In this document: positions 46,248-47,719 of the stretch, piece after piece | How positions within the stretch are numbered: position 1 is the stretch's first letter | How the letters are laid out: the number at the start of each line of letters is the position of its first letter | Assembly: GCA_944322615.1 (NCBI GenBank) | Contig: CALUPH010000009.1 | Span: 1-64,000, forward strand | DNA length: 64,000 nucleotides | Origin: Candidatus Gastranaerophilales bacterium | GTDB taxonomy: Bacteria > Cyanobacteriota > Vampirovibrionia > Gastranaerophilales > Gastranaerophilaceae | Direction of reading: 5' to 3' | The notes under the pieces: generated by a model | The model's database searches: none | The model's input: only the letters and a program-made list of their open reading frames with translations | Told to the model about the DNA's origin: nothing | Program-made: the position numbers and the translations under genes

Positions 46248-46318
46248 TTTATAGTATTTTGTATCTTGATTTTTTTATATTGTGGTGCAAAAATAGTTGG
46301 TATAGTAAAGAGGTATTT

Positions 46319-46396
46319 ATGTATAGCCGTAACTCAAATCACAATCTAGCTTGGTGGCACCTGTTTTTAGAAACAGGCGTTTTGAGTTGGCGTTAA
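46319..46396 (+). CDS. Trp-rich leader peptide (25 aa)
   Basis: ATG at 46319 with AAGAGG five bases upstream. The peptide contains NLAWWHLFLETG and ends LSWR; three of 25 residues are Trp, two in tandem. The codons for HLFLETG are themselves the first RNA hairpin of the attenuator. The frame ends between segments 2 and 3, as expected for ribosome-controlled attenuation. Confidence 0.78.
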   Translation: MYSRNSNHNLAWWHLFLETGVLSWR

Positions 46397-46422
46397 TTTG
46401 AATAACTTAAAAAGATTGTATT

Positions 46423-46454
46423 TAGCCTGTTTCTTTGTAAACAGGCTATTTTTT
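46423..46454 (+). terminator. Attenuator terminator
   Basis: TAGCCTGTTT and AAACAGGCTA form a 10-base stem with a six-base loop, followed by six Ts. Segments 3 and 4 of the attenuator. Confidence 0.88.
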
Positions 46455-46483
46455 GTATTCAGATTAATGTAAAGGTGAAAATA

Positions 46484-47719
46484 ATGAAAGTAGAAAAAAT
46501 AGGATTAGGATTAAATATTGCAAGAAAATTTATATCATTACAAGAAGGCGGGGCTGGTCTTTCTCATATGCGATTTATACAAGATAGTGCAACAGGACTT
46601 TTACCAAAAGCAATTTTTGCACGTTCAAAGGCAGATCTTGTAGAAAACAGTTTTTTGGAATTAGCAGAATCTGCACTTGTTTATTATGGACCAGGAATAA
46701 TAGGAGAAGGTGTTTTCAGAAAATTATACAGTAAAAATCTCCCTGATAAATTGAAAGAAAAAATTGCTACGCCTGCTGTTGAATTATTGAAAGAAAATTC
46801 GATTGATAATAAAAAAATTCTTCCGGTAAAAGCGGCAATAGCCTTAAGCGGTTTATCTATACCAATTGTTGAATATTCATTGAATTATATAAAAAATCTT
46901 TTGACTTTGAAGATGTTTAAACAAGGTGACTTTAATGATATTGCTAAGCTTGATAAAAATAAATCAATAAATACAGAAAAAAATAAAGAAGTGGAAAAAA
47001 GTGCAAAAAAACATATTCTAGGTGCTGCCGCTGCATTTGGTGTTTGTTTGGGATTAAGTGCATTATTGTGTAAAAAAGGTGAAAATTCTAAAACTCTTCA
47101 AAACTTTTCTGAACTTATTCTTGCACCGGGAAATAAGTTAAAAAATCAAAAGTTAAAAGATTTTGCAAATAAATATATGAGTGCAGATTTTGCAAATAAT
47201 AATGGCAAACTTACAATGAGTAAAGGTCAACTTACTTCTTGTGTAACAATAGGTGCACTTGGTTATTTTGGTGCAGCACATGACAGAGGTAAACAAAACT
47301 TTTTAGAAGTTCTTTTCAGAATGCCAATTGTAGGATTCTATATTATTTGCGGAAATGAACTTCTTGAAAAAGGCTTTAAGAAAATGTTGGTTAAATCAGG
47401 TAAATGTAAAGAAACAATTGGCAAAAATTTAGAAGTACCTGCTTTAAAAGATCTAACTTCATTGGCAAAGAAAATCCAAGCAGAAAAAGGTGGTAATTAT
47501 AATGATATATATAAGAAATTACTTAAACAGAAAACCTTAATATCTGGAGTACCCTTCCTTTTTGGAATAGGAGTAATGGGATTTTTTGTTGCAGCTGTTT
47601 CAAGATATTTTACTCAATACAGATATGATAAAGAAAAAGCAATCAAAAATTTAAACAATCAAACTATAGACTTTTATAAGGATAATAATACTCCAAATGT
47701 TTTTAGTAATTTCGCATAG
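46484..47719 (+). CDS. Membrane protein of unknown function behind a Trp attenuator (411 aa)
   Basis: Not recognised. The ATG at 46484 has AAAGG eight bases upstream; the GTG at 46475 is within that site. Hydrophobic or Gly-rich segments include LPVKAAIALSGLSIPIVEYS, ILGAAAAFGVCLGLSALLC, TIGALGYFGAAHDRGKQ, MPIVGFYIICGN and GVPFLFGIGVMGFFVAAVSR, so it is probably an integral membrane protein with basic loops. No biosynthetic motif is seen. The 30 bases between it and the attenuator terminator contain no other promoter that I can identify, so transcription from the attenuator would run into it. Confidence 0.75.
   Translation: MKVEKIGLGLNIARKFISLQEGGAGLSHMRFIQDSATGLLPKAIFARSKADLVENSFLELAESALVYYGPGIIGEGVFRKLYSKNLPDKLKEKIATPAVELLKENSIDNKKILPVKAAIALSGLSIPIVEYSLNYIKNLLTLKMFKQGDFNDIAKLDKNKSINTEKNKEVEKSAKKHILGAAAAFGVCLGLSALLCKKGENSKTLQNFSELILAPGNKLKNQKLKDFANKYMSADFANNNGKLTMSKGQLTSCVTIGALGYFGAAHDRGKQNFLEVLFRMPIVGFYIICGNELLEKGFKKMLVKSGKCKETIGKNLEVPALKDLTSLAKKIQAEKGGNYNDIYKKLLKQKTLISGVPFLFGIGVMGFFVAAVSRYFTQYRYDKEKAIKNLNNQTIDFYKDNNTPNVFSNFA

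Follow-up and report, generated by a model that had tools for sequence, protein, structure and literature searches.

The attenuator at 46307-46454 on the forward strand of the window, by which we mean the whole 64,000-nucleotide stretch of DNA that was analysed, is a real tryptophan attenuator of the classical type, acting in cis on its own gene (46484-47719, forward strand). Three things about it are unusual: the family to which its target belongs, a twin leader built on methionine codons, and a regulated protein purged of the very amino acid that is sensed. Judged by the anatomy of the leader, the gene would be switched on when tryptophan runs short, and we consider its regulation by tryptophan starvation highly probable.

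The leader element and its proposed mode of action

The element (46301-46484, all features on the forward strand) opens with a Shine-Dalgarno-like AAAGAGG (46307-46313), read directly from the sequence, at whose position relatives mostly carry purine-rich stretches resembling AAAGG, GAAAG or GAGG. It is followed by a leader peptide reading frame of 25 codons (46319-46396, with ATG at 46319 and TAA at 46394-46396) encoding MYSRNSNHNLAWWHLFLETGVLSWR. Codons 12 and 13 are the tandem tryptophan control codons TGG TGG (46352-46354 and 46355-46357), located 2 nt ahead of the first of four RNA segments, and a third TGG (46388-46390) is codon 24, two codons ahead of the stop. Segment 1 (CCTGTTT, 46360-46366) has segment 2 (AAACAGGC, 46371-46378) as its partner; segment 2 can instead form an antiterminator with segment 3 (AGCCTGTTT, 46424-46432), which in turn can pair with segment 4 (AAACAGGCT, 46439-46447). 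The last pairing, followed by a run of six T (46449-46454), constitutes an intrinsic terminator recognised both by a terminator scan and by the covariation described below. The structural gene has its own Shine-Dalgarno-like AAAGG (46471-46475), likewise read directly. The ribosome binding site, 25-codon leader, tandem and third tryptophan codons, four segments and terminator of the original prediction were all found where it had placed them.

Folding energies amount to -7.2 kcal/mol for the 1:2 hairpin, -13.2 for 3:4 and -19.2 for the antiterminator (46368-46436), all three lying far below the energies of shuffled sequence (z scores -4.7, -5.1 and -3.9, respectively). Two terminator-like sites were observed, against 0.0 +/- 0.2 in shuffles, and no other short reading frame on the two strands of the 64-kb window contains tandem TGG. 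As far as sequence can tell, the window thereby holds the features by which a tryptophan attenuator is recognised: a leader reading frame with its ribosome binding site, tandem codons, mutually exclusive pairings and a T-run terminator. A gene for tryptophan metabolism downstream, which is the usual context and no part of the mechanism, is absent here, its place being taken by a gene of an uncharacterised family. An Rfam search of the window returned two tRNAs only, and no tryptophan-leader family matched at or above the gathering cut-off.

A possible but weak promoter, TTGATT-16/17-CAAAAAT, was read by eye at 46266-46294 on the forward strand, a site that a sigma-70 scan did not call. TTGATT and an A-rich -10 element are present again at the same place in four relatives (L005-L008), and RNA from this candidate might begin shortly ahead of the leader ATG.

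The attenuator would sense charged tRNA-Trp through the translating ribosome. With tryptophan scarce, the ribosome would stall on TGG TGG and its front edge would mask segment 1, leaving segment 2 to pair with segment 3, so that the 3:4 terminator would not form and transcription would proceed into the gene. With tryptophan plentiful, the ribosome would reach the stop codon at 46394, with its rear edge close to segment 2 and its bulk within what would otherwise become the loop of the antiterminator; pairing of 2 with 3 would be hindered, 3:4 would form and transcription would stop near 46454. We infer this geometry from the leader, using ribosome footprint sizes from general knowledge. In folding without a ribosome, 2:3 was favoured once segment 3 was out and 3:4 once segment 4 was out.

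Conservation of the leader across the order

Eighty close orthologues were collected from relatives and named genomes, the closest named relative being Candidatus Avigastranaerophilus faecigallinarum (L098), whose protein is 98% identical and which places the genome of the window in the order Gastranaerophilales and in the genus of Ca. Avigastranaerophilus. A scan detected the tandem-Trp leader frame in 75 of the 80, and a WW peptide of the same kind, with a TTG start, was read by eye in two others (L144 and L156). Three orthologues had 20 nt or less of upstream DNA and were left out of the readable count, so that 77 of 77 with readable upstream DNA keep the tandem-TGG leader, as do 13 of 13 further members of the Trp clade. 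Conservation in relatives, the check proposed along with the original prediction, is thus complete in this set. Since the leader is kept with this gene order-wide, it belongs to the downstream gene and is not a stray trp leader.

Three layouts of the leader were distinguished. Layout A, to which the window belongs, follows the pattern ..WW.L...TG.LSW[RQH]-stop and has segments 1 and 2 within the reading frame. Layout B (..LNNRWWRL-stop) has segment 2 beyond the stop, as in the classical trpL. In layout C (e.g. L138, L148 and L162) WW lies close to the stop and there is no clear T run. The start codon, TGGTGG, the third TGG and the stop are all conserved in the layout-A alignment (A4). The codon pair itself is invariant in 26/26 layout-A and 19/19 aligned layout-B leaders and always stands ahead of segment 1 despite the change of layout between lineages, and the third TGG is invariant in layout A and missing from layout B.

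Covariation was computed on the 26 layout-A leaders. The 1:2 pairing was formed in 93.4% of cells with 12 compensatory cells, 2:3 in 91.7% with 21, and 3:4 in 96.5% with 34; none of 500 shuffles reached the score of 1:2 or of 2:3, nor did any shuffle reach that of 3:4, and while kinship of the sequences inflates such scores, slid controls that retain the kinship fall to 23-51% paired. The alternative pairing 1:2/2:3/3:4 is confirmed in this way both by the energies and across the order, and the claim of a complete trp-type attenuator gains support from the conserved frame, the TGG pair and the three covarying pairings.

Some layout-B members (L125, L128, L139 and L158) have no clear T-run terminator after the leader. 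In these and in layout C, control may be exerted on translation or via Rho. Tryptophan leaders with no T-run terminator nearby were also noted in L138, L144, L148, L151, L154, L156, L162-L167 and L232-L237, and in many members of this sub-clade a palindrome, GTATCGATATATCGATAC, lies upstream. The palindrome is perhaps an operator, and control in this sub-clade may be translational.

The conserved ending of layout A bears on a different way of reading the leader, namely as a TnaC-like arrest peptide that senses an excess of free tryptophan and stalls the ribosome near its end, at W-R-stop. The third tryptophan codon and the W-[RQH]-stop ending speak for it, as does the Met codon near the stop of the methionine leaders presented below. 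However, layout B stops right after WW-R-L and lacks this ending, what is conserved are codon runs and not the peptide sequence, and a Trp-free gene product points to expression in tryptophan shortage. We therefore regard an arrest peptide as very unlikely and retain attenuation by charged tRNA-Trp.

It could also be asked whether the structure is simply the terminator of the upstream HAD gene, accompanied by a short reading frame that arose by chance, given that a terminator-like hairpin is located ~175 nt beyond that gene. The alternative pairings covary, however, and a methionine-leader twin exists. The gene upstream differs among relatives that have the leader (L003, L004, L006 and L007), and the persistence of the leader where the upstream gene differs rules out a role as HAD-gene terminator, an explanation to which we assign next to no probability.

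A comparison of neighbouring genes gave no conserved neighbour of help. Upstream, the reading frame at 44519-45496 matches LdpA, a light-dependent period protein (PF12617); the Gastranaerophilales are the gut branch of the relatives of Cyanobacteria and are thought to be non-photosynthetic. An N-terminal "FxG" tag common to proteins of the window was considered and dropped for lack of enrichment, being present in 3 of 49 N-termini and in 7 of 49 internal stretches.

A motif of the leader, TGGTGGYRCCTGT, was found at 50 sites in 146 genomes. Among the 17 sites that were read, six (L173, L176, L180, L182, L188 and L189) precede the gene family, and the other eleven fall in unrelated coding DNA and were counted as chance. 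The 39 exact matches of TGGTGGCACCTGTTT in viral contigs were likewise taken as chance. As far as read, the leader thus sits before this gene family and nowhere else, which argues against action in trans of the attenuated RNA or its peptide, a possibility raised in the original prediction; in such a reading, modelled on peTrpL and rnTrpL, the downstream gene would be incidental. Termination would indeed free an RNA of ~150 nt containing the reading frame, and S. meliloti offers a precedent despite low sequence conservation (PMC7298713), but the loss of tryptophan from the gene product is not predicted by a role in trans. We found no evidence for such action and consider it very unlikely.

A methionine-leader twin in the same family

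Besides tandem TGG, the gene family carries a second type of leader, made of runs of ATG. Paralogues ~42% identical to the window gene sit behind Met-codon leaders such as MMMNMMMQMQG...FVRM-stop, and the genome of the window has its own paralogue of this kind (G000:C5:95424-96803; L070, L190), with the Met leader MLYFNKQMMMNMIMQMQGLESGSHYLLRM and a terminator. Order-wide, all 29 of the Met-clade genes for which upstream DNA was available (29 of 29) have a Met leader and then a terminator. The leader stretch that follows the Met run is the complement of the terminator's 5' arm, and the two covary (AGGCAG/CTGCCT, AGGTGG/CCACCT, GGGTAG/CTACCC and GGCGGTC/GACCGCC); in 22 of the 29 leaders this complementarity exceeds that of at least 95% of the versions obtained by shuffling the leader's own codons. 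All 19 of an extra 19 family members were consistent, six from the Met clade having Met leaders and 13 from the Trp clade having Trp leaders.

In the Met leaders of the window's genus (L014-L029), CCTCG directly follows the leader stop, and in several it is complementary to the Shine-Dalgarno sequence CGAGG of the structural gene. Judging by this complementarity, translation may be controlled in these leaders besides termination.

Amino acid content of the regulated proteins

Genes that must be expressed while the sensed amino acid is short are expected to encode proteins poor in it, a mark documented for amino acid biosynthetic pathways facing starvation (PMC4209129). The Trp-led proteins are devoid of tryptophan in 90 of 93 cases and contain a single residue in the other three, whereas the 35 Met-led paralogues have one to five per protein. 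Three alignment columns that are mostly Trp in the Met clade hold other residues in the Trp clade: column 116 is Trp in 35/35 Met-clade proteins and Leu in 89/93 of the Trp clade, column 493 is Trp in 34/35 and Phe in 92/93, and column 382 is Trp in 24/35 and Leu or Ala in 93/93. The bias in methionine runs the opposite way, the median content being 0.89% behind Met leaders and 1.69% behind Trp leaders; in neighbouring genes the mean is 2.5% for Met and 0.79% for Trp. Both groups of regulated proteins are accordingly poorer in the amino acid sensed by their leaders than their paralogues are. Among neighbouring proteins of similar length 20% also lack tryptophan, and related sequences are not independent, so that P values were given no weight and the argument lies in the opposite direction of the bias in sister clades. 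A product free of tryptophan could be synthesized in full during tryptophan starvation.

The proposal that the downstream protein is itself regulated by tryptophan, one of three explanations offered originally, is borne out by the company that leader and gene keep in every orthologue examined and by this loss of Trp residues.

Distant homologues and the wider superfamily

Further orders of the class also contain members of the family, which are roughly 22-33% identical. Among GC-richer distant homologues, whose leader types were assigned by eye from upstream reading frames, Trp leaders occur in L249, L250, L251, L256 and L262 (less clearly in L253, L257 and L263) and Met leaders in L248, L254, L261 and L264-L267 (more weakly in L259 and L260). 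Two distant Trp-led proteins retain 8-9 Trp. A tree of 64 proteins requires two changes between Trp and Met leaders, although the tree was built quickly and several of its branches are long. Across 194 genomes sampled from the phylum, every match listed fell within the window's own family, with no sign of it outside the class.

Two leaderless groups were also noted. The distant superfamily L268-L278 (520-595 aa, with the motif MVxPRTxxDxxxRGPxAGxET) occurs in many genomes of the order, in some in tandem, and has ordinary Trp and Met content. A third, short type of paralogue (L071-L085, ~345 aa) follows a tatC-like reading frame in several genomes and has ordinary Met content. Upstream of a second family gene of L249 (L249:3752), a short reading frame, MVDRIVKVCGTCPFCVLRVTN, contains three Cys codons; it was rejected as a Cys-codon leader for want of a counterpart in L250.

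Tryptophan and methionine metabolism and the role of the protein

The window is contig C9 of a genome bin of 1.96 Mb, 96% complete, in which single absences are not proof. No match to PF04715 or PF00425, and hence no chorismate-binding enzyme of the TrpE/PabB type, was found in this bin, nor was MetE or MetH. Without these enzymes the genome would depend on external tryptophan (or indole) and methionine, and it looks auxotrophic for exactly the two amino acids that are sensed. It has kept trpBA (L170:5393-7361, G000:C3) but not trpE, and the other genes of the pathway do not lie close to the pair, which suggests indole salvage. No tandem-TGG leader stands in front of trpBA; a 41-codon reading frame with two Trp codons was observed upstream of trpB. 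The idea that trp genes had once followed the leader and moved away is not supported, given the lack of TrpE/PabB in the genome, trpBA without a tandem-TGG leader, and the read motif sites, which belonged to the family or to chance.

The regulated protein has 411 residues, none of them Trp, and its start at 46484 is correct. It is all-helical in a confident AlphaFold2 model (mean pLDDT 85, pTM 0.81) and is probably membrane-bound. In the original description as an unknown membrane protein, "membrane" derives from only about four strongly hydrophobic stretches and the helical model; the mean hydropathy of the family is slightly negative. The sequence has no significant match in Pfam, NCBIfam, PDB sequences, PADLOC or PHROGs profiles, and the fold has none in the PDB or in the BFVD viral library searched with Foldseek. 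Known amino acid transporter families match it neither by profile nor by fold.

We propose that the protein serves in uptake or scavenging of the sensed tryptophan (or methionine), the likeliest role, to which we give about an even chance. Auxotrophy and uptake are linked only suggestively, since presence of the gene does not simply follow the absence of TrpE or of MetE and MetH: TrpE-bearing (PF00425) relatives with the gene exist (G039, G045 and G048), many TrpE-less genomes are without it, and MetE and MetH are missing from nearly all relatives, with or without the Met-led gene. The want of a clear relation to TrpE, and in particular of a clear anticorrelation, would also suit a general effector of starvation or stress, for example in envelope remodelling or growth arrest, that is regulated in the same manner and wired to tryptophan in one copy and to methionine in the other. 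This is quite possible, if somewhat short of an even chance, and agrees with the absence of transporter homology or fold and with the existence of leaderless superfamily members of ordinary composition (L268-L278) and of short tatC-adjacent copies. On the other hand, two amino-acid-specific sensors on paralogues are more simply explained by amino-acid-specific work, and the genome looks auxotrophic for precisely tryptophan and methionine.

Extending the acquisition role to the whole lineage, a starvation system of two branches can be pictured that uses one uncharacterised membrane-protein family, in which Trp and Met sensing were swapped at least two times through the codon run of the leader and the sensed amino acid was depleted each time. 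Such a system, including ribosome-dependent attenuators on Met codons and a new family for tryptophan and methionine acquisition, seems to us evenly poised between right and wrong.

Significance and comparison with known systems

The open-access papers searched yielded no account of attenuation for this lineage and none of leaders with Met-codon runs; attenuation itself is classical, and the methionine version and the target family look new. The leaders act as labels that show which amino acid is short when each protein of this orphan membrane-protein family is made, and for these otherwise unreadable proteins of uncultured gut bacteria they supply a directly testable hypothesis, namely tryptophan and methionine acquisition. 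They would widen the reach of attenuation to include methionine codons as well as genes that serve neither biosynthesis nor tRNA charging. The loss of tryptophan at three positions where the sister clade has it is a clean natural case of protein composition under pressure from starvation.

Control of genes by methionine supply is known from S-box (SAM) riboswitches and Met T-boxes. Unlike these, the Met leaders described here are runs of ATG codons in a leader peptide.

The trpL of S. meliloti resembles the window element in its short leader (with WWW) and attenuated RNA; its RNAs and peptides can act in trans (PMC7298713). Unlike the window element, which shows no sign of such action, it precedes trpE(G). 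In Actinobacteria, attenuators have been reported before trp operons, trpS, leuS, ilv and cys genes, and no RNA element before methionine operons (PMC1262725). Tandem or triple UGG and complementary triples conserved over large distances are shared with the tryptophan attenuators of that survey, in which some amino acid leaders are also without an obvious terminator, but the targets there are biosynthetic or tRNA-synthetase genes (PMC1262725).

The closest likeness in build is to the trp operon attenuator of E. coli, with its leader reading frame, tandem Trp codons just before segment 1, mutually exclusive hairpins and T-run terminator. Layout B shares with trpL the stop codon between segments 1 and 2, whereas in layout A, that of the window, both segments lie within the reading frame. 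Unlike trpL, the window element controls a protein of an uncharacterised family and not tryptophan biosynthesis.
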